Shown piece after piece: positions 1 to 11,532 of a stretch of 11,567 nucleotides of DNA. Each line of letters begins with the position of its first letter. Position 1 is the stretch's first letter. The notes beneath the pieces were generated by a model that searched no databases, was not told where the DNA came from, and saw nothing but the letters and a program-made list of their open reading frames with translations. Source of the stretch: Clostridia bacterium (lineage in GTDB: Bacteria; Bacillota; Clostridia; Oscillospirales; CAG-382); assembly GCA_017397605.1 (NCBI GenBank), contig JAFQII010000252.1, forward strand, positions 1 through 11,567, in the 5' to 3' direction. The position numbers and the translations under genes are program-made.

Positions 1-606
1 TACGCGATGCCGATTTTTGTTGTGATCACGGTCGTGCTGGTCATACACCGCAACCACGACGATCATTTTTTTGAAATCGAAAAAGCCGCAAATATCCGCC
101 CGTCCGCTTATCTTTGGGGCAGGATCACCGCTCTGACGGCTGTAAACGGTTTGACATTGCTCCTATGGGGTTTTTTGGCATTTCAATTCTATATCGTGAC
201 GCGCGGCGGCGTCGAGGGGCTGACTCTCACAGAATATGTTGCGGACATGCTGCCACGTTTTGTGCGGACTTATCTTTTTGTCGCTTTACCGCCCATTTTA
301 TTCTACATCGGTGTCACCTATCTGATCGGTTCGGCTTCAAAAAGCGGTGTCGCGTCTGCGGTTAGCGGCATTGGTTATGCAATTTTCTTTTTTGTCGCTT
401 ATCTCATGTTTCGCGGCCGCATTGCGGATGTTTATTTTGATTATCTTTCACCCATACCTTACAATCTGCGACGGTATTTTCATTATTACGATTCAAGATG
501 GTTTGAGGAAACCATCACAGAAGCTCCTCTGTTCGATGGTTCCGTCCCCGTGGCTCCTACCTTGGAGGATTCGTATATTTACGCCTTGGGCGGCGTGAAG
601 AGGTAA
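1..606 (+). CDS. ABC-2-like permease with an ABC-ATPase C-terminal tail (5'-partial chimera)
   Basis: The frame is open from base 1, so the gene continues upstream of the window; the ATG at 7 aligns inside the homologous permease and is not its start. Counting from that ATG, residues 1-170 match the permease at 612-1469: FFEIEKAA at 21-28, then TRGGV at 65-69, several hydrophobic helices, and a YLSPIPYNL block at 146-154. The last helix of that permease is missing. Instead residues 172-199 match the last 28 residues of the ATPase at 4266-5144 at 24 of 28 positions, including SVPVAPTLEDSY. A conserved (T)LED motif near the end is normal for DrrA/BcrA-type ATPases and out of place in a permease. 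The DNA of this tail is about 76% identical (64 of 84 bases), with most changes silent, so the fusion is not a fresh copy of the downstream gene. Whether the protein still works is unknown; it would lack its final membrane segment. Confidence 0.8.
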   Translation, partial: YAMPIFVVITVVLVIHRNHDDHFFEIEKAANIRPSAYLWGRITALTAVNGLTLLLWGFLAFQFYIVTRGGVEGLTLTEYVADMLPRFVRTYLFVALPPILFYIGVTYLIGSASKSGVASAVSGIGYAIFFFVAYLMFRGRIADVYFDYLSPIPYNLRRYFHYYDSRWFEETITEAPLFDGSVPVAPTLEDSYIYALGGVKR

Positions 607-611
607 AGGGA

Positions 612-1469
612 ATGTTTAAAACTATTGTTGTCACAACAAACAGAAATCTCTTTCGTTCAATCACGTTTCGATTATCTTTAATAATATTATCCGTCGTAGC
701 TATCGTGACAGCATTGCGAGGCTTTCATGGAACCTACGATATGAGCCTCAATGAATTGATCATGGATACCGATCCGCGATATGTACTTAAATATGATATT
801 TTCATTCAGTGGCTAAATAACTCGGTGACATCGCTTTTGCTTTACATCTTGCCCTTTTTTTCTATCATCGCAACAGTAATCATCCTTATACGCGATTACA
901 AAGATGACTTTTTTGAGATAGAAAAAGCAGCCGGAATAAAACCTTTTCAATATATATTCGCACGCTTGCTGACATTGATTTCAATCATCTACATATTGTC
1001 TGCAGTCATGAATTATTTTCAAGTTAATCTTTATGTATATACACGCGGCGGTGTTCAAGGAATGGATATGAAAGATTATCTGGTCGAGAGTTTTGTGCGA
1101 CTGACACGCATTGAGTTCACACGAATACTCCCTTGCATCACCTTTTATGTATGCCTAACATATTTATTTGGCTCTTTTTCCCGAAGTGCTATTTTATCTG
1201 CATCGCTGTGTATGGCATATGCCATTACAAACTATGCCGTAGTACTATATTCCGTAGCAGAAAGTGGGATCTTTTTGAATTACCTTTCTCACACTGCGCG
1301 AAAATTACAGAACTACATGCATGTTTATGACACTGAAAAATTCGAAAGTTTTGTGACACAGACAAATACATCCTCAACAGATGCCGCTCTTTGTATTAGT
1401 TTTTTAATCGATTGCGGTATTCTATTTGCAGGTCTATGCTATGTCCTCGTTAGAAAACGTGAGCAATAA
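612..1469 (+). CDS. ABC-2-like transporter permease, six membrane helices
   Basis: This 285-residue integral membrane protein is probably the membrane subunit of an ABC exporter. Hydrophobic segments lie near residues 18-36, 71-93, 119-142, 170-188, 192-214 and 257-280, followed by a basic end (RKREQ). The cytoplasmic motif DDFFEIEKAAGIKP (98-111) after the second helix is also present in the gene before it and, weaker, in the permease at 3512 (NFEIELALTCGVK). By analogy with ABC-2 permeases it could be the ATPase-contacting loop (inference). The start follows the previous stop by five bases, with a GAGGTAAAGGGA ribosome site overlapping that stop, so the two genes are co-transcribed and probably translationally coupled. 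No ATPase lies directly beside it; the only one in the window is at 4266. Substrate cannot be told. Its AT-rich composition contrasts with the genes after 5200. Confidence 0.85.
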   Translation: MFKTIVVTTNRNLFRSITFRLSLIILSVVAIVTALRGFHGTYDMSLNELIMDTDPRYVLKYDIFIQWLNNSVTSLLLYILPFFSIIATVIILIRDYKDDFFEIEKAAGIKPFQYIFARLLTLISIIYILSAVMNYFQVNLYVYTRGGVQGMDMKDYLVESFVRLTRIEFTRILPCITFYVCLTYLFGSFSRSAILSASLCMAYAITNYAVVLYSVAESGIFLNYLSHTARKLQNYMHVYDTEKFESFVTQTNTSSTDAALCISFLIDCGILFAGLCYVLVRKREQ

Positions 1470-1499: not shown

Positions 1500-2642
1500 A
1501 TGAAGCGCATATTTACCTCGATCCTCATTCTACTTTTCGTGCTTAGCACAGCCGCTTGTTCGAACGATCACTCACAATCTACTTCGAATGAATCCTCGTA
1601 CGTTGATCCTATTTCGGACTATGATGATATCTCGGTTTTCTATCCAAATGATTCCGATGACGAAACATTGCCCGAATCCCAAGAGAACGAGTCGGAAAAT
1701 GAAGAATCTGCAGATCATTCGATTGAAACTCCCGAGTCTGCCTTTTCCGAAGAGCCGCACGAATCCTCCGATGATGGGTCTGTAGAAGAGGAGTCCTCAA
1801 GTCATTCGGAAGAAACTTCCGAATCTGCTTCCTCCGAAGAGCCGTACGAATCCTCCGATGATGAGTCTGCAGAAGAGGAGTCCACAGATTATTCGGGAGA
1901 AACCTCTGAATCTGCTTCCTCCGAAGAGCCGCACGAATCCTCTGACAATGAGTCTTTCGGCGATGTCACATCTGAAGAGGAGCCTCACTCCGCGGGCGGT
2001 ATCGTTATCAAACAGAAAAAATACGACTATAATGGTCATCATATTATAATAATGTCAGTTGAAAATCAAACAAAAAAAGACTACACAATCACGATTAACG
2101 GATCCTATTTTGAAGCAAACGGCACAATGATTCAACAGGAAAGCAAAACTTTCAAAGGATTTGCCTCCTGATATCAAAAATATTTTGTTTTTAATCCGGG
2201 AATGCAATTTGATCACTTTGAATACACACTAACAACGGAAAGCTTTGGCGGAATTGCATTTTCGAAATATCTTAAAACCATGGATCCGGTTCGCATTACA
2301 ACCGGTAAAACATTTATAAACGGCACAGGCGGTTTCTTTGATCAAGCACATGTTGCCGTCTCTGCAAGTTTTCAGGTTGCTAATACATATGATAAGGAAT
2401 TATTCTACTCCGCAGAATTTGTCGTATTTGATAACAAGGGAGGCATCTACTATATCGATTCAACACTCCAAGAAAGTAGCGCAGTTCCGGTAGAGAGCGG
2501 CAGATCGCCAACGGAATATAGAATTGGACGTTATATTATTTACACCGATGTATTATGGGAAGATAAAAGCTCATTTGTTTTACCCGATGAACTACAAGGT
2601 GATGTGATTGGAATCGTGTGCGTCAAAAGCATCAGCAACTAA
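1500..2642 (+). pseudogene. Lipoprotein with Ser/Glu-rich repeat stalk, interrupted by in-frame TGA
   Basis: One reading frame of 380 codons is broken by TGA at 2169-2171, after residue 223. The start is secure: ATG at 1500 with AAGGAGA five bases upstream. Residues 1-20 form a lipoprotein signal with lipobox STAAC. An acidic Ser/Glu-rich segment follows, with three tandem units at residues 68-153. A beta-rich domain then begins (IVIKQKKYDYNG...). Its continuation after the stop, YQKYFVFNPGMQFDHF, aligns with YQNYFIFEPKIKFDHF in the protein at 2819-3502, where the residue at the stop position is Gly (SGYQ). A GGA-to-TGA change is therefore the likely lesion. The domain resembles FxLYD-type extracellular domains (inference). 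The part after the stop has an ATG at 2202 without a good ribosome site, so separate translation is doubtful. The first part could still give a truncated surface protein. Other genes here end in TGA, so TGA is a true stop in this genome. Confidence 0.8.
1701..1958 (+). repeat. Three tandem ~87-bp repeats coding for a Ser/Glu-rich stalk
   Basis: Three units start at 1701 (84 bp), 1785 (87 bp) and 1872 (87 bp). The block GAAGAGCCG recurs at 1749, 1836 and 1923, exactly 87 bases apart. Each unit codes for about 29 residues of the pattern EES..HS.ETSESASSEEP.ESSD, with no hydrophobic run. Such acidic low-complexity segments commonly act as wall-spanning spacers in Gram-positive surface lipoproteins (inference). 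Units 2 and 3 are more alike than either is to unit 1, suggesting stepwise expansion. Confidence 0.9.
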
Positions 2643-2643
2643 T

Positions 2644-2802
2644 TTCTATTATGTTTTGAAGCGATGAGAAGTCGGGCATATAAACATCAAACGTTTCGGT
2701 TTGACGGCAGTCGATCCGATATTGTGCATTTTGTTTTTGGCCTGCACCTCGTTGCTTTGCCTGATAGCGGCATATTGGTGCCAGAAAAAACGTGAGATTT
2801 AA
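2644..2802 (+). pseudogene. Remnant of a permease C-terminus (last membrane helix)
   Basis: Directly after the lipoprotein stop (2640-2642), a frame ending at TAA 2800-2802 codes for a hydrophobic helix (PILCILFLACTSLL onward) followed by QKKREI. This mirrors the end of the permease at 612-1469, whose last helix is followed by RKREQ, and the end of 2819-3502 (RIRKRNV). The frame is interrupted by TGA at 2665-2667 and has no start or ribosome site of its own, so it is read as a leftover of a permease gene removed by recombination. It shows that at least one more permease copy once stood here. The match is short and compositional in part, so confidence is moderate. Confidence 0.6.
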
Positions 2803-2818
2803 TGAAAAGGAACGGATT

Positions 2819-3502
2819 ATGAGAAAGAGTTTTGTTTTCCTGCTATGCGCCGTGCTACTTTTTTCGGGATGCGCCAAATACGAAGAGCACACAATCGTAT
2901 CTTTTGACGAAGAGTCACGCATCGTGATCGAAAACAGCGAAACCGATCAGATCAGCGAGCTTTTGATCAAAGAAAAGAAGTACACCTTTGAGGGGAAAGA
3001 CCTTGTGGTGCTAGATGTTACAAACATCACGGGCAGTTCCCTATCCGTAACAATAAACGTGTCCTTTTTTACCAAGAACGGCAAAACCGTAAAAACGCAA
3101 ACACAGACCTTTGACCAGTTTTACAGCGGCTATCAAAACTACTTTATTTTTGAACCGAAAATCAAGTTTGATCATTTTACCTATACAGTCAGTACGGTAT
3201 TCAAAAGCGGGGTTGCGGCAATGATCGCGTCATCGATCTACGTCATTGTGTTTTATTTGGGCCAGCTTACGCTTCATATGAGCTACGAGCCGATCGTTCA
3301 GGTATATTTACGATATCTCAGTCCGCTCCCCCGGGCATTGAGGCTACATGCGGCAATGGCGGACACCGGTTACTACAAAAGCGCTCTCAGCATACATAAT
3401 GATCAACCGATCCATATCGTTTTGGGCTTTTGCAGTCTGATATGTTTTATCGGTTTGGGAGCGGGAATTTCCTACTTCCGTATCCGCAAGCGTAACGTTT
3501 AG
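2819..3502 (+). CDS. Chimeric protein: lipoprotein N-terminal half fused to permease C-terminal half
   Basis: The start is taken at ATG 2819, with AAAAGGA eight bases upstream; a GTG at 2792 in the same frame would put charged residues before the signal. The protein has 227 residues. Residues 1-18 are a lipoprotein signal with lipobox FSGC. Residues 48-127 match the beta domain of the lipoprotein at 1500-2642 (LLIKEKKY versus IVIKQKKY; IKFDHFTYTV versus MQFDHFEYTL). From about residue 128 it becomes a permease C-terminus: FKSGVAA aligns with SKSGVAS of the gene at 1-606, YLSPLPRALR with YLSPIPYNLR, and a last helix is followed by RIRKRNV. The junction lies near 3200, at bases similar in the permease gene (TTCAAAAGCGG here, TTCAAAAAGCGG at 337-348). 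The frame is kept across it. A surface-lipid-anchored protein with two or so C-terminal helices is possible but unusual; it may also be decaying. Confidence 0.82.
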   Translation: MRKSFVFLLCAVLLFSGCAKYEEHTIVSFDEESRIVIENSETDQISELLIKEKKYTFEGKDLVVLDVTNITGSSLSVTINVSFFTKNGKTVKTQTQTFDQFYSGYQNYFIFEPKIKFDHFTYTVSTVFKSGVAAMIASSIYVIVFYLGQLTLHMSYEPIVQVYLRYLSPLPRALRLHAAMADTGYYKSALSIHNDQPIHIVLGFCSLICFIGLGAGISYFRIRKRNV

Positions 3503-3511
3503 GAGGGTAGT

Positions 3512-4252
3512 ATGCTATTCTTACGTTCTTTATGGAAAAACAAATATTATCTCGTCTTGGCGACGGCTCTCATGGTGGTGGTCTCCCGGGTATGGGAAGC
3601 ATCGCCATTGATTGCGGCTTTGCCGGAGAAGGGTTTTATCGACTACACGGAGTTATTCGTGCCGTTTTTGCTGATTCTACCCATTTCGTTCTTGCTGTAT
3701 GATAACTTCGAGATCGAGCTGGCCTTGACCTGCGGGGTGAAGACGGTGAAGCTGATGCTTTACAAGTTTTTCTCGGTGTTGCTTTACACCCTGATTCCCA
3801 TGGGGATGTTGGTGGTGTTTTACAAGTACACGGAGTTTACCCCCAATAGCCAAACGAAGATACGGATTCCCATCGTCATTCCAGATGATTACAAGGTATA
3901 CATGGCGGTGTCTGCGTTTGTGACAATTTTGTTCTTTGCGTCGTTGTTCCTGCTGGTGCGTGTGGCGACGAAGAACTGTTATGCCCCCGTGGGCTTGGGG
4001 ATCTTGGTGTATACCATTTTCAACACGCTGAACACCAATATTCACTCAGGGTATGAGGATATACGGAAGTGTCTGTTTGACCCCTTCTTGTCCAACTATT
4101 TTCTCGGGGACGAGGTGCCGGTGAATTATTACAAGGTAGGCCCGCTTTGGACGTACAACAGGATCTTGTTCTTGGGATTGGCGTTGGTGATGTTGGTTGT
4201 TACGTACGTTTTGTTGAGACGGGAAAAACTGCATCAAGGATTTAATGATTGA
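3512..4252 (+). CDS. ABC-2-like transporter permease, six membrane helices
   Basis: This 246-residue membrane protein is the likely partner of the ATPase that follows. Hydrophobic segments lie near residues 12-26, 47-63, 86-104, 131-149, 158-174 and 217-235, and the end is charged (RREKLHQGFND). NFEIELALTCGVKTVKL (65-81) after the second helix corresponds to the FEIEKAA.I.P segment of the other permeases, so it belongs to the same broad family but a different branch; it lacks their TRGGV motif. The ribosome site AGGAGG (3501-3506) overlaps the stop of the preceding gene, showing tight coupling. It is the only permease here directly adjoining an ATPase and appears intact. Codon use is heavy in TTG for Leu and GTG for Val, more so than in the ATPase next to it. 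Substrate unknown. Confidence 0.85.
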   Translation: MLFLRSLWKNKYYLVLATALMVVVSRVWEASPLIAALPEKGFIDYTELFVPFLLILPISFLLYDNFEIELALTCGVKTVKLMLYKFFSVLLYTLIPMGMLVVFYKYTEFTPNSQTKIRIPIVIPDDYKVYMAVSAFVTILFFASLFLLVRVATKNCYAPVGLGILVYTIFNTLNTNIHSGYEDIRKCLFDPFLSNYFLGDEVPVNYYKVGPLWTYNRILFLGLALVMLVVTYVLLRREKLHQGFND

Positions 4253-4265
4253 GAGGAGTATATAC

Positions 4266-5144
4266 ATGAAAATTGAAATCAAGAACCTAACCAAAATCTA
4301 TCCCAGAGGGAAAAAGAAAGCCCTGAATGGTGTGAACATCGAGATCGGGCAGGGCATTTTCGGGTTGATCGGGCGCAACGGCGCAGGAAAGACAACGTTA
4401 ATGCGCATTGTCGCAACGATCATGGACGCTACCGACGGCGAGATTTATTTTGACGGAAAAGAGTTAAAGGCAAACAAAGACGAGTTCCGTTCCTCGCTCG
4501 GATATCTTCCACAAAGCACAAAATTGATGCCGAGAATGAACATTGTCGAGTTTTTGGATTACGTTTGCATTCTCAAAGGCATCAAAAACAAAACCGAGAG
4601 AAAAGAAAAGATTGCCAATGCGATCGAAACGGTCGGTCTGGTCGGCGAAGAAAAGAAACGCTTGGGCAAATACTCGGGCGGTATGTTACGCCGTGCAGGT
4701 ATTGCGCAGGCTTTGATCGGCGACCCCAAGGTATTGATCATCGACGAGCCCACAACGGGGCTTGATCCCGAGGAGAGACTGTACTTTTTGAATCTGCTTT
4801 CCAAAATTGCCATGGAGAGAACGATTATCTTTTCCACGCATATTACGGCAGATATTGAGCATTTGTGCAACAACATCTGTGTTTTGGAACAAGGTGAAGT
4901 CAAGTACCTCGGCGAAAAGGGCGCGTTTATCAACCGTGTGGAAGGCAAGCTGTACGAGCACACGGGAACGCCATTTGAGGAAGAACAGTTGCGAAAGGAC
5001 ACCGTGGTCACCTCCGTGGCATACGTAGACGGCAAGCCGAAGATTCGTTACGTTGCAGAAGCGCCTGTATTCGAGCATTCTGTTCCCGTGGCTCCGACCC
5101 TTGAGGACTCGTATATTTTTGCTCTGGGCGGTGTCAAACGGTAA
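4266..5144 (+). CDS. ABC transporter ATP-binding protein (BcrA/DrrA-like)
   Basis: This 292-residue cytoplasmic ATPase would power the permease at 3512-4252. Visible motifs are Walker A GRNGAGKTT (36-44), Q-loop LPQ (81-83), a signature in the form YSGGM (136-140) instead of LSGGQ, Walker B VLIIDEP (156-162) and the switch His192 in FSTH. The C-terminal part (about 200-292) contains the typical regulatory extension and ends in the PTLEDSY segment seen in DrrA/BcrA-type ATPases. An in-frame ATG at 4245 overlaps the permease end, but ATG 4266 has GAGAGGAG eight bases upstream and gives the usual N-terminus (MKIEIKNLTKIY), so it is preferred. All catalytic residues are present. Its last 28 residues reappear at the end of the gene at 1-606. 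Related ATPases serve in antibiotic export or lantibiotic immunity; the substrate here is not known. Confidence 0.95.
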   Translation: MKIEIKNLTKIYPRGKKKALNGVNIEIGQGIFGLIGRNGAGKTTLMRIVATIMDATDGEIYFDGKELKANKDEFRSSLGYLPQSTKLMPRMNIVEFLDYVCILKGIKNKTERKEKIANAIETVGLVGEEKKRLGKYSGGMLRRAGIAQALIGDPKVLIIDEPTTGLDPEERLYFLNLLSKIAMERTIIFSTHITADIEHLCNNICVLEQGEVKYLGEKGAFINRVEGKLYEHTGTPFEEEQLRKDTVVTSVAYVDGKPKIRYVAEAPVFEHSVPVAPTLEDSYIFALGGVKR

Positions 5145-5234: not shown

Positions 5235-5948
5235 ATGAAGAAAACAACCGTACTTGCATTGGTTTTTTGTTTGGTGTTTGCATTGGTCGGCGGAACGTTT
5301 GCGATTGCGCAGGAGGTTTCCGAAGGTGAAAACGCAACAGATGTATCAGCAGAAATATCCGCAGAGGATGCTCCCGCGGCAGATGAAACGGTTACACAAG
5401 CCGAAAGTGCGAATGTCCCCGAAACACAACAGCCGGTCACGGATGCTTACAGTCCCGACAGAGTGGTTTTGACTTCTACTGCTTGGGATGACACGCTGGG
5501 CGAATGCGTCACGGGCGAATTTGACTCGCTTGCGGACGCGCTTTTGGCGGTCAACAGCGACGTTCCGCTGTATTATCCCTCTTGGGATGCGGGGCATCTC
5601 GACACCTTTGGCGGTGCAATGCTGATCATTCTGCACAACCCCGTTTCGGTGCTCGACATGTCCACGGGTACATCCACGGTACACGCGTCGCTGCAGTTTA
5701 ACTACCACACGCCGCAGTTGGAGTATTTCAAGATCCATTTCGGCTACACGGGCAAGGGTGATTCCGAAGAAGAATGCGAAGCGTACGCGTTTGGCAAGTA
5801 CACGTTTTATCTCAGAACGTACGAAAACGTCGTGACGGGTAAGCAGGGCTGTATCGCGCATGCGGACATCGAAGGCTGCGGCTATCAGTTTGTCGCGGGC
5901 AGTATCGAAGACGCAAAGCGCATCATCGACAGCTTGGTACGCGCGTAA
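5235..5948 (+). CDS. Secreted protein sharing the sensor domain of the downstream anti-sigma factor
   Basis: ATG 5235 has AAGGAG eight bases upstream; the longer frame from 5181 would bury the signal peptide. The protein has 237 residues. Residues 1-25 are a classical signal peptide (cleavage probably after AIA). An Ala/Glu/Thr-rich linker covers about 27-68. A C-terminal domain (about 75-237) is clearly related to the outer domain of the anti-sigma factor at 6543: VTGEFDSLADAL versus VTGTFDTLSQAM, YYPSWDAG versus YYPTWDGG, SLQFNYHT versus SLQFEYHT, and EDAKRIIDSLV versus EDAKRMIDSLV. The C-terminal pattern recalls DUF4367, a domain found in Firmicute anti-sigma-type proteins (tentative). With no membrane anchor it should be released or held at the surface. 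A -10-like TATACT lies at 5190-5195 without a well-spaced -35 box. It may compete for, or deliver, the signal read by the anti-sigma factor (inference). Confidence 0.85.
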   Translation: MKKTTVLALVFCLVFALVGGTFAIAQEVSEGENATDVSAEISAEDAPAADETVTQAESANVPETQQPVTDAYSPDRVVLTSTAWDDTLGECVTGEFDSLADALLAVNSDVPLYYPSWDAGHLDTFGGAMLIILHNPVSVLDMSTGTSTVHASLQFNYHTPQLEYFKIHFGYTGKGDSEEECEAYAFGKYTFYLRTYENVVTGKQGCIAHADIEGCGYQFVAGSIEDAKRIIDSLVRA

Positions 5949-6010: not shown

Positions 6011-6580
6011 ATGCAATCGGATCTGTTTATCAAAAAAGCGATACGGGACATCGCGCACGGCGACCGCAATGCGATCGGCGTGATTTATGACTGCGCCTAC
6101 AAACAGATCTACTCGGTTGCATGGTCGGTAGTCAAAAACCGCGAGGATGCGGAGGACGTATCGCAGGAGACGCTGTGCGAGATCCTGCGGTGCGCCTCCT
6201 CGTACCGCGGCGGAAATGCCAAAGCGTGGGTGCTTGCCATTGCGCGCAACCGCGCGTTGGATTTGGTCAAAAAGCAAAGCCGTCTGACCTTGCGCGAGGA
6301 CATGGCGGCACAAACGGAGCTGTCCTGTGCCAAGGACGCGCTGGAAGACGAGGTGATCTGTATGGATGCCTTGCAGACCTTGGGCGATACGGAACGCGAG
6401 GTGGTGCTCTTGCGCGTTTATTGCAACTGCCGTCACAAGGAGATCGCACAGATTTTGGAGATCTCCGTTTCGGCATCCGAAAAGCACTACCAACGAGGGC
6501 TTGCCAAGCTCAAAGCCTATTATCAAGACAAGGAGGAGCCGTATGAAACACATCCGCAAACAAATCAAAAACACGTTTGA
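6011..6580 (+). CDS. ECF-type RNA polymerase sigma factor
   Basis: This 189-residue protein has the two domains of group 4 (ECF) sigma factors. Region 2 lies at about 18-88, with DAEDVSQETL (46-55) and the promoter-melting/-10 segment AWVLAIARNRALDLVKK (72-88). Region 4 lies at about 118-170, with LGDTEREVVLLRVY and the helix-turn-helix HKEIAQILEISVSASEKHYQ. Length is normal. The start at 6011 has only a weak ribosome site (GGTGAAA), and no better in-frame start was found upstream, so translation may be kept low. The gene overlaps the anti-sigma start by 38 bases, the usual layout of a sigma/anti-sigma pair. It would direct polymerase to a small regulon when released; the upstream secreted protein is an obvious candidate target (inference). 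Confidence 0.92.
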   Translation: MQSDLFIKKAIRDIAHGDRNAIGVIYDCAYKQIYSVAWSVVKNREDAEDVSQETLCEILRCASSYRGGNAKAWVLAIARNRALDLVKKQSRLTLREDMAAQTELSCAKDALEDEVICMDALQTLGDTEREVVLLRVYCNCRHKEIAQILEISVSASEKHYQRGLAKLKAYYQDKEEPYETHPQTNQKHV

Positions 6581-7340
6581 CCGCGCACCGCGCAAAACAA
6601 AAGCGGAAACGCTGGACGCGTTGGGCATCCGCCCGCAACATCATGTACGCCCTGCGGTCGGACGGCGCGCCGTTTTGGTCGCCGCGTGCATCATCGCGCT
6701 GTGCGCGCTCGGCACTTCCTTTGCATTGGCGATCGACGATCCGTCGATCATCGACAAGCTTTTTGAGATCATCGACAGGACCGAGTCGGAAGACTCCTCT
6801 GTTTCGGAAACGTCTTCTGCTGTGACGGTCAATGATCCTGCATTCGGCGCTGTCATCCTTTCTGCCCCGCCGTCGTTGCCAAGCGAGTTGCCCAAGCCTG
6901 TCACGGGCACATTCGATACGCTGTCGCAGGCGATGCGTGCGGTGGAAACGGAGTACGATTTTTATTACCCGACATGGGACGGCGGTACAGTGAGCTCTTA
7001 CGGCAAAGATCGTACGCTGTTGGTTCTGGTCGGCGCAAACGGCGTTGTCACCCCGCCGAACTACGAAGACACGCGGTATTATTTATCCTTGCAGTTTGAA
7101 TACCACACGAAGCAGATCGATTTCTTTAAAGTGGTTTTGGGACGGCGCGAAAGCCTGCCCTCGCAATACGACGAGGCATATACGTTTGAAGGCGGTACGT
7201 TTTATCTGTATGAGCCGGCTTTTGAGGAGTACAAAGGAAAGGTGCTGGCTGTCGCCACGATCGGGCAGTGCAGTTACCAGATCCTTGCGCAAAGCGCAGA
7301 GGATGCCAAGCGGATGATCGACAGCTTGGTAATGCCGTAA
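6543..7340 (+). CDS. Membrane-bound anti-sigma factor with extracellular sensor domain
   Basis: The start ATG 6543 lies inside the end of the sigma gene and has AAGGAGG six bases upstream; the longer open frame from 6366 is sigma-gene shadow. The protein has 265 residues. It has a basic cytoplasmic part (1-42), one membrane helix (about 43-63), a Ser/Glu-rich linker (about 80-95) and an extracellular domain (about 115-265) shared with the secreted protein at 5235. The cytoplasmic part is short and has no HxxxCxxC zinc motif, so it is not a ZAS-type anti-sigma factor; it more resembles the short N-terminal tails of RsgI/DUF4367-type regulators (inference). Position and overlap are the main evidence that it holds the sigma factor. 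The outer domain has conserved aromatic motifs (FYYPTWDGG, LSLQFEYHT) that could bind a ligand or the cell wall. Confidence 0.82.
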   Translation: MKHIRKQIKNTFDRAPRKTKAETLDALGIRPQHHVRPAVGRRAVLVAACIIALCALGTSFALAIDDPSIIDKLFEIIDRTESEDSSVSETSSAVTVNDPAFGAVILSAPPSLPSELPKPVTGTFDTLSQAMRAVETEYDFYYPTWDGGTVSSYGKDRTLLVLVGANGVVTPPNYEDTRYYLSLQFEYHTKQIDFFKVVLGRRESLPSQYDEAYTFEGGTFYLYEPAFEEYKGKVLAVATIGQCSYQILAQSAEDAKRMIDSLVMP

Positions 7341-9613: not shown

Positions 9614-10129
9614 ATGAAAATCAAAGGCATTTTGATATTGCTTGCCGTTTGCGCTCTCGTTTTGTGCGGGTGCGCAGGACTCGGCGTCTCGCCGATCCAC
9701 ACGGGAGAGACGTATATCCAAGGCTCGTGGTATTTCTCCGAAGGCGGGCTGAACGTCGGCTACAACCTGTTTGACGACGGCGGCGGCTATCAGTTTATCG
9801 GTTCGGTACACAACCCGATCCGATACGGCATTTATAACGGCAATATTTATATCGCTGTCAACGGCGGCGAAGCTGCCGCATTTACATACGAAGAGAGTGA
9901 CGAAGGGCTGGTCATCGGCGGCTTGCTCTACAAGCCGGTCGAGGCAAACGAAGAAGTCGCAGAGTCGATCGCAAACGAGCTTGCGCAATTGCAAAGCGCA
10001 CCCGGGCAAACGGGGCTCGACGCGGTTACAATCGGTTATTACATCAGCGCGGCGGCAGGCTTTGGCTTGGTGATCTTTATCATCGTCTGGCTCGTCCGCA
10101 CGGTCAAAAAGCGGGAGAAACCGCTATGA
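9614..10129 (+). CDS. Lipoprotein with beta domain and C-terminal membrane helix
   Basis: ATG 9614 follows AAAGGGG by about ten bases; the longer frame from 9569 starts inside the promoter and is rejected. The 171-residue protein has a lipoprotein signal ending in lipobox LCGC (Cys20). Residues ~33-108 form a compact domain of short strands (GSWYFSEGG, GIYNGNIYI, GGLLYKPV) that recalls lipocalin-like DUF5640-type lipoprotein domains (tentative). A helix at about 139-162 is followed by VKKREKPL. A lipid anchor at one end and a helix at the other would pin both ends to the membrane, an unusual topology. The stop overlaps the start of the CotH gene (ATGA), so the two products are made together. 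Function unknown. Confidence 0.78.
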   Translation: MKIKGILILLAVCALVLCGCAGLGVSPIHTGETYIQGSWYFSEGGLNVGYNLFDDGGGYQFIGSVHNPIRYGIYNGNIYIAVNGGEAAAFTYEESDEGLVIGGLLYKPVEANEEVAESIANELAQLQSAPGQTGLDAVTIGYYISAAAGFGLVIFIIVWLVRTVKKREKPL

Positions 10130-11532
10130 AACAAACAGTCTCGCTCTTTTTGAGCTTTATCCTTTTGCTCAGTATGCTGTGCAGCTGTCAGGCGCATGTG
10201 CACGCATACGCGCTGACGGTCATTGCGCCGACCTGCAAAACGATCGGATATACCATCCATGCCTGCGATTGCGGTGATACCTATTACTCGGACTACAAGG
10301 CCGAGGGTGCGCACGAATTCGGCACATGGCAGACGGGTGTACAGCCCACGCTGACAGAGGGCGGTGAGGAATACCGCATCTGCAAAACCTGCGGTATTCT
10401 GGAAGCACGCGACGTCGGAAACCAATCGAAGCTTGCCAAGCTGTACGCAACGACCGAAGGTGCATTTTTGTACACGGACGGCGAGCTTCGTTTTTCCTGC
10501 ATCGGTACGCTGACAACGCGTACCGCCGGAGACAAGCGCGCATACAATCTGCATCTGCAAAACGAAAACGGAGACAGCTACGCGGTCGATCTGGGCTGGG
10601 GCGAGCGTGCAAGCTACGCATTGGAGCCCTGCGTTCCCGACCCCACGCTGACGCGCGCAAGCGTCGCAGAAAAGCTTTGGCACGCCTGTGCGGAAACGCG
10701 GTCCGATAAGGACTGGATGCCTGCGGAAGCATACGGCAGTATTCCCGTGCAGTTGTACCTCGACGGCACCTACCTCGGTGTTTTTGCGCTGACTGCCCCC
10801 GCTGACGGATGGAAATATGCCTACAGCGGATATCACGGCAGTCCGACGGCAGTGTTGCAAGCAAAAAATGACGGCGACGGCTGTTCGTTTGCGTCCCGCC
10901 CTTCTTATGAGAACGGCGATTTTGAGGTGCTTTCCTGCTCGACGGACGAGGTTTTGTGGGCAACCGAAAGCTTTGACGGCTTTAACATCTTCGTCCGCGA
11001 CGCAAAAGACGCGGCATTTCGGGAACAGCTCTCGCAATATAGCGATCCTGGCGTTTTGATCGACTATTTTCTGCTGACGCAATTCTTTGGACTGTCGCAC
11101 GGCGACACCGCAGAAACGGTCTGGCTGACGGCAGACGGCATTCACTGGCTCCCTTCATTTGCATTTGACAGCCTCAACACCGCGTTTGGCATCAACGCTT
11201 TCGGCGCGCTGTACAGCGGCAGTCAAGGCATTGCGCAAGCGGGAGAAAACGGTTCTGTGCTGTATACGGGAGACAATCTGCTTTGGGCACGTCTGTGCAA
11301 CATGTTCGGTGCAGAGATCAAAGCGCGCTACAAAGAACTCCGCAAGACGATCCTGAACATCGACGCGCTGGAATCACGCTTTGTCACTTCGTTCAATCAT
11401 ATCGAAAAAGGCTTGTTTACCGCAGAACGTCTGCTCTACCCTTCCGTCCCCGTGCACGGAATGAGTACCGACCGCATGCGGCAATTCTGGGAAGAACGCC
11501 TTGCGGCCATGGACGCCTGGCTGAAGAATTAA
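10126..11532 (+). CDS. CotH-family lipoprotein (kinase-like fold) with N-terminal Cys/His domain
   Basis: This 468-residue protein has a lipoprotein signal with lipobox LCSC (Cys21). A Cys/His-containing domain follows (about 24-95: HVHAY, PTCKTIGYTIHACDCG, ICKTCG), a kind common in clostridial surface proteins. The rest resembles the CotH family, whose Bacillus member is an atypical protein kinase needed for spore-coat assembly. Matches include TRASVAEKLWHACAE (176-190), YLDGTYLGVFAL (211-222) and VLIDYFLLTQF (310-320). The usual DLDxxFG metal-site segment is here FDSLNTAFG (347-355), where the second Asp is replaced by Asn351, so catalysis is doubtful. Overlap with the preceding gene by four bases shows translational coupling. 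No sporulation promoter is seen; a vegetative role at the surface is plausible. Confidence 0.78.
   Translation: MKQTVSLFLSFILLLSMLCSCQAHVHAYALTVIAPTCKTIGYTIHACDCGDTYYSDYKAEGAHEFGTWQTGVQPTLTEGGEEYRICKTCGILEARDVGNQSKLAKLYATTEGAFLYTDGELRFSCIGTLTTRTAGDKRAYNLHLQNENGDSYAVDLGWGERASYALEPCVPDPTLTRASVAEKLWHACAETRSDKDWMPAEAYGSIPVQLYLDGTYLGVFALTAPADGWKYAYSGYHGSPTAVLQAKNDGDGCSFASRPSYENGDFEVLSCSTDEVLWATESFDGFNIFVRDAKDAAFREQLSQYSDPGVLIDYFLLTQFFGLSHGDTAETVWLTADGIHWLPSFAFDSLNTAFGINAFGALYSGSQGIAQAGENGSVLYTGDNLLWARLCNMFGAEIKARYKELRKTILNIDALESRFVTSFNHIEKGLFTAERLLYPSVPVHGMSTDRMRQFWEERLAAMDAWLKN

Follow-up and report, generated by a model that had tools for sequence, protein, structure and literature searches.

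Gene content of the window

The stretch of DNA analysed here (the window, 11,567 bp) is the whole of contig C237 of a Clostridia bacterium assembly, which comprises 1.7 Mb in 300 contigs and is 61% complete. It carries an array of transporter and lipoprotein genes in the order chimera, permease A, lipoprotein gene with an in-frame stop, last-helix remnant, lipoprotein::permease fusion, permease B, and ATPase (Table 1). The first open reading frame (ORF) is open from base 1 and encodes 201 residues; its 5′ end is cut off by the contig start, beyond which about 79 N-terminal residues are expected, as estimated from the profile position. Its stop codon is followed after 5 bases by the ATG of the intact permease A gene (A2), which has a GC content of 0.368 as compared to 0.41–0.55 in the rest of the array. 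Further along the window, a gene for an ECF-like sigma factor (Pfam Sigma70_r2 and r4) is flanked by genes for two related proteins (5235–5945, 6011–6580, and 6543–7340); these two proteins share 36.9% identity and, in our judgement, look secreted or membrane-anchored. A CotH-kinase-like protein is encoded at 10126–11532 (Pfam CotH, 30 bits at a cut-off of 23.8).

Table 1 Features of the array in the window, with the matches or comparisons by which they were delimited
Feature	Positions	Strand	Basis
Permease A part of the chimera, 5′-truncated at contig start, last helix missing	1–516	+	Profile positions 80–253 of 288
Chimera junction, accurate to a few bases	516–519	+	Base identity and codon alignment
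ATPase C-terminal tail, 28 codons and stop	520–606	+	Comparison with window ATPase and L076
Intact second permease A (A2)	612–1469	+	Profile match
Lipoprotein gene LP1, one in-frame TGA at 2169–2171	1500–2642	+	Pieces match profile positions 2–121 and 123–267 of 278
Frame with permease A last-helix remnant	2668–2802	+	Profile positions 250–288
Second in-frame chimera, lipoprotein::permease A	2819–3502	+	Lipoprotein profile positions 5–147, permease A profile positions 184–288; joint at about 3179–3193
Intact permease B	3512–4252	+	Profile match
Intact ABC ATPase (start in ORF list 4245)	4266–5144	+	End (5058–5141) homologous to chimera tail

Composition of the chimeric gene

Residues 1–174 of the chimera were matched by a permease A profile built in the present analysis (E 9e-70), and its end was matched by positions 253–292 of a 292-position ATPase profile (E 1e-9). 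The rest of the ATPase profile was unmatched, i.e., the nucleotide-binding domain is absent. The original prediction had put the identity of the last 28 residues to the end of the window ATPase at 24 positions, and recomputation over codons 520–603 gave the same value. The roughly 20 base differences, mostly silent, that it had reported for the 84 coding bases were likewise recovered (20 differences, 64 identical bases), with 12 of the 16 changed codons being silent, four being replaced, and 13 of the 20 differences falling on third codon positions. The tail match is beyond chance, both within the own genome (E 1e-9) and among the compared ORFs (E 1e-10). The observation of a permease ending in an ATPase tail is thus confirmed, and we regard the chimera as a gene scar of an ordinary kind.

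The permease part ranked 14 of 36 by leave-one-out score, like intact members, and missed two of the 16 columns conserved at ≥ 90% (rank 27 of 36). The last membrane helix and the basic C-terminal end typical of related permease A proteins are missing from the chimera: the most hydrophobic 19-residue segment among its C-terminal 45 residues scored 0.65, as compared to 1.88–2.79 for the other 23 permease A sequences in alignment A1. For the count of six helices in permease A, pieces at 160–180 were counted as one, the script having split the fourth and fifth hydrophobic regions. Pfam matches at E 0.01 or better among 24 permease A proteins were ABC2_membrane_3 (7 proteins) and ABC2_membrane_2 (5 proteins), which relates permease A to the ABC-2 permeases; the chimera differs from these in lacking the last helix and in its score against ABC2_membrane_3, which was 25.1 bits for a query cut at the 5′ end and thus under the cut-off of 31.6. 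A search of the permease A profile against PDB sequences returned four matches, all of them nuclear receptors at E 0.3 and taken as chance.

Position of the joint and integrity of the assembly

Counted per 12 bases from the 3′ end, the chimera shares 8, 8, 11, 9, 11, 8, and 9 bases with the window ATPase, and then 4, 2, 4, and 2, i.e., base identity collapses upstream of position 520. In the codon alignment, from which the row of contig C149 was left out at the joint, the sequence is permease-like up to residue 172 (bases 514–516), as far as which permease relatives in L076 and L088 match the chimera codons, and ATPase-like from residue 174 at the latest (520–522). As the permease codons end at residue 172 and the ATPase codons start by residue 174, the joint was placed at about 516–519, with few shared bases at most. 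No exact match of more than 13 bases was found between positions 480–560 and the rest of the window or nine whole and three partial contigs of the own genome (13 of the 300 contigs, including that of the window); hence, no k-mer of ≥ 21 bases is shared at the joint within this set. For the whole of 1–606, the longest exact match in the same contig set was 22 bases (in the tail at position 572, to contig C186), and around the other two scars in the window the longest matches were 15 and 12 bases. A DNA search of the own genome (assembly 61% complete) returned no near-identical copy of either half of the chimera, the best other match being 83% over 515–602.

These values bear on misassembly, in which a short-read assembler or a strain mixture would have fused a separate permease and a separate ATPase gene. 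Such an error would fit the fragmentation of the assembly, the fact that several other contigs of the own genome (C245, C186, C22, C153, and C270) begin or end within array genes, and the location of all scars on one contig; it would also fit short-read data such as those of a ruminant-gut MAG set, for which passages of PMC8199421 give 150-base reads and assembly with MEGAHIT and IDBA-UD and to which several relatives with RGIG names were assigned by record name only. Against it stand the shortness of the exact matches at the joint among the 13 contigs compared, the absence of a near-identical copy of either half from an assembly in which 39% is missing, and the in-frame stop of LP1, for which a separate cause would be needed. 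Misassembly is thus considered unlikely.

Origin of the ATPase tail

The tail was compared with those of several ATPases, and the 20 base differences to the window ATPase dropped to 18 for C153, 15 for C186, 13 for G010, and 5 for L076. The contig L076 belongs to a Clostridia MAG from sheep colon (RGIG5382), and its ATPase is full length, is 93% identical to that of the window over residues 1–292, and ends in the same 28 residues as the chimera (28/28), all five base differences being silent. This supports the predicted origin of the tail in a diverged second ATPase copy. The lineage of the window's own ATPase was rejected as the nearest donor, since C153, C186, G010, and L076 are all closer over the tail. 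The own genome holds at least five related ATPase copies (window, C153, C245, C149, and C186), two of which are cut by contig ends, and since the tails of four of them (window, C153, C186, and C149) differ from each other by 14–31 bases, the divergence of the chimera tail corresponds to the normal divergence between ATPase copies. Selection, which had been proposed to have held the tail before or after the fusion, is visible for its past within the ATPase, but no sign of it was seen for the time after the fusion. Long ageing of the tail after the fusion is unsupported, as every tail residue matches the L076 ATPase.

The window ATPase scored 149.3 bits against the DrrA-type model TIGR01188 (cut-off 312.45) and 136.1 bits against the lantibiotic-protection model TIGR03740 (cut-off 309.75), and is thus below both cut-offs. 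For DrrA-type ABC exporter ATPases, a passage of PMC4132065 describes a conserved C-terminal LDEVF motif. In our judgement, TLEDSYIYALGG in the tail resembles this motif, which in both cases lies at the extreme C terminus, but the copy studied here is part of a permease that lacks a nucleotide-binding domain.

Distribution

Searches with the chimera protein found relatives in five of 60 genomes, in six of 63 genomes of the family, and in seven of 394 genomes of the order (≤ 8 candidates scored per genome in the latter), the sets overlapping and including the own genome, and the permease profile was found in four of 391 genomes of the class (own genome included, ≤ 6 candidates scored per genome). 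With relatives in few genomes of each set, the arrays are patchily distributed. Outside the own genome, no match spanned the whole of residues 1–201 in the 60, 63, or 394 genomes; the partial matches were permeases with a full frame of their own, ending at residue 184 or before, or ATPases covering the tail from residue 162. A permease family naturally carrying the ATPase tail, which the original prediction had named as a counter-finding, was looked for in the same three sets and among 45 permease A ORFs; no case was found, and this candidate was rejected. None of the genomes searched was close enough to belong to the same species, as permease matches in other genomes reached 53% at best. According to the record titles, the related arrays come from hindgut MAGs of sheep, goat, water buffalo, and roe deer, from two MAGs labelled Lapin (rabbit, by label), and from the Oscillospiraceae MAG SIG564. 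Searches for the chimera in plasmids and phages, of the permease alignment against viral contigs, and a first scan of genome contigs with the chimera as query yielded no match.

Array order in relatives and further scars in the window

Gene order was counted from profile matches at E 1e-4 or better. The ORFs were taken as stop-to-stop frames, and a few of them overlap each other or represent one half of a gene at a locus end. Profiles were mapped on seven of 79 loci (L076, L079, L083, L084, L085, L089, and L090), and a further eight (L077, L078, L080–L082, and L086–L088) were treated as contigs already covered from G062, G028, G010, G023, and G013; the remaining 64 loci (≤ 38% identity) were outside the mapping. 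Loci L063, L064, L089, and L090 were left out of the order count as divergent, and single-family matches of < 60 profile positions were dropped from the order listing, so that the remnant at 2668–2802 was counted but is absent from the order string.

In relatives, the array usually runs lipoprotein, permease A, permease B, ATPase, and it often continues with further lipoprotein or permease A genes. Counts of adjacent pairs were 23 for lipoprotein–permease A, 9 for permease A–permease B, 13 for permease B–ATPase, 9 for ATPase–lipoprotein, and 3 for ATPase–permease A (in relatives, with 15 bases between the genes in L055). This order is common but not invariable, as 31 lipoprotein–lipoprotein, 16 permease A–lipoprotein, and 7 permease A–permease A pairs were counted as well, along with some rarer ones.

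Among the 45 permease A ORFs, 40 are full length (including A2 of the window), two are cut by contig ends, and three are truncated, and all three truncated ORFs lie in the window (chimera, second fusion, and remnant). Two families were joined in two of the 171 ORFs with a match, again both in the window. Contrary to what the title of the original prediction implies, the chimera does not stand alone, as the same decaying array holds two further scars. In the second fusion, the first approximately 124 residues are lipoprotein and the remainder corresponds to the final two hydrophobic segments of permease A, the two parts being joined where both families read T-Y-x-V. The remnant is a stand-alone last helix of permease A between two lipoprotein genes, and LP1 is otherwise complete but split by its single TGA, with intact relatives existing. 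No convincing Pfam family was found for 37 lipoprotein pieces (best E 7.7e-5, one member; most widespread DUF4969, four members).

The usual order also bears on the possibility that a more distant ATPase gene of the genome donated the tail, through transfer or non-homologous recombination, and that no neighbouring ATPase gene was deleted. Donors would have been available among the related copies in the own genome. Permease A directly follows the fused gene, however, as in the three ATPase–permease A pairs of relatives, and the other two scars are likewise collinear; a donor from elsewhere is therefore quite improbable.

Probable deletion within a tandem array

Deletion between neighbouring genes can give birth to gene fusions. 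With a probability of about 0.7, we regard the chimera as a fusion that arose recently by deletion within a tandem array of ABC-transporter cassettes now in decay, and its product as most likely non-functional. The ancestor would have carried permease A, permease B, ATPase, and permease A2 in a tandem array, from which about 1.65 kb (judging by the lengths of the missing segments) would have been lost, namely the end of permease A, the whole of permease B, and most of the ATPase. Illegitimate recombination would thereby have fused the shortened permease A gene, with the reading frame kept, to the final 28 codons of the ATPase gene. Two similar deletions, one from a lipoprotein gene into permease A that would have left 2819–3502 and another that would have left the remnant at 2668–2802, together with the stop codon in LP1 indicate an array in decay, in which one permease B–ATPase pair stays intact.

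Both parent genes are found separate and intact in relatives (the 40 full permease A ORFs and the same-tail ATPase of L076), and the fused parts follow the undeleted order from permease A via permease B to the ATPase. Since none of the scars departs from the gene order of the array, they are best explained by collinear deletions in a tandem array that is decaying. A deletion inside a tandem cassette had been proposed from the outset, and it gains support from the order in relatives and from the two similar scars; the event itself we infer from gene order. The locus resembles other deletion-born gene fusions in its parent families that are intact elsewhere, its collinear order, its abrupt joint without extended shared sequence, and its broken neighbour, and differs from them in that three scars, two of which are in-frame fusions, lie within a few kb of a single array. 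Counting against a deletion relic, both fusions are in frame and the permease part is undecayed by leave-one-out score; the latter may reflect either a recent event or continued use.

Predicted topology and function of the products

The termini of the intact permeases are basic, with means of 2.4 (N-terminal) and 3.7 (C-terminal) Lys + Arg versus 0.0 and 0.3 Asp + Glu, respectively. The positive-inside rule places basic ends in the cytosol, and both termini of the intact permeases are accordingly predicted to be cytosolic. With the last helix lost, the tail of the chimera would lie outside, away from the cytosolic ATPase. From this topology, which was derived from hydropathy and loop charges, the chimera is expected to have no function and is most likely a relic.

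A functional fusion under selection, in which the tail with the conserved C-terminal motif of the ATPase would give the shortened permease a new role, e.g., in binding an ATPase or permease partner, would agree with the kept reading frame, the identity of all 28 tail residues to the intact L076 ATPase, the permease part without visible decay by score, and the stop codon only 5 bases before the next gene. The predicted position of the tail outside the membrane speaks against such a role, as do the broken neighbouring genes and the absence of a full-length match from the overlapping sets of 60, 63, and 394 genomes, and a recent origin also accounts for the tail identity; we hold selection on a new function to be improbable. 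Still further removed from our expectation is that in-frame deletion made new membrane proteins here, with 1–606 and a hairpin-anchored lipoprotein from 2819–3502 being expressed as decoys or regulators of the permease B–ATPase pair. If either chimera were functional, the locus would exemplify the creation of new membrane proteins by array contraction. Under the preferred reading of collinear deletions, tandem lipoprotein/ABC-transporter arrays of gut Clostridia can shrink, and the in-frame chimeras left behind could be mistaken for ordinary permeases or lipoproteins by automatic annotation.

Further features of the related arrays

At L085 (10421–16184), and also at L079 and L081, at least five neighbouring lipoproteins of one diverging family lie beside one ABC module, and the lipobox cysteine is invariant across the lipoproteins (alignment A2). 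The genomes G062 (L065/L066) and G028 (L053/L054), which belong to one genus, have the array in common and hold four and six permease A genes, respectively. The two permease A genes missing from G062 left no remnant in the profile map, and the difference corresponds to either a clean loss in one genome or a gain in the other. At L076, the array is followed (2863–4376) by genes for a response regulator and for a HAMP-domain protein that also contains the beginning of a HisKA domain; the latter protein is cut by the contig end, and its HisKA match scored 26.0 bits at a cut-off of 26.9.
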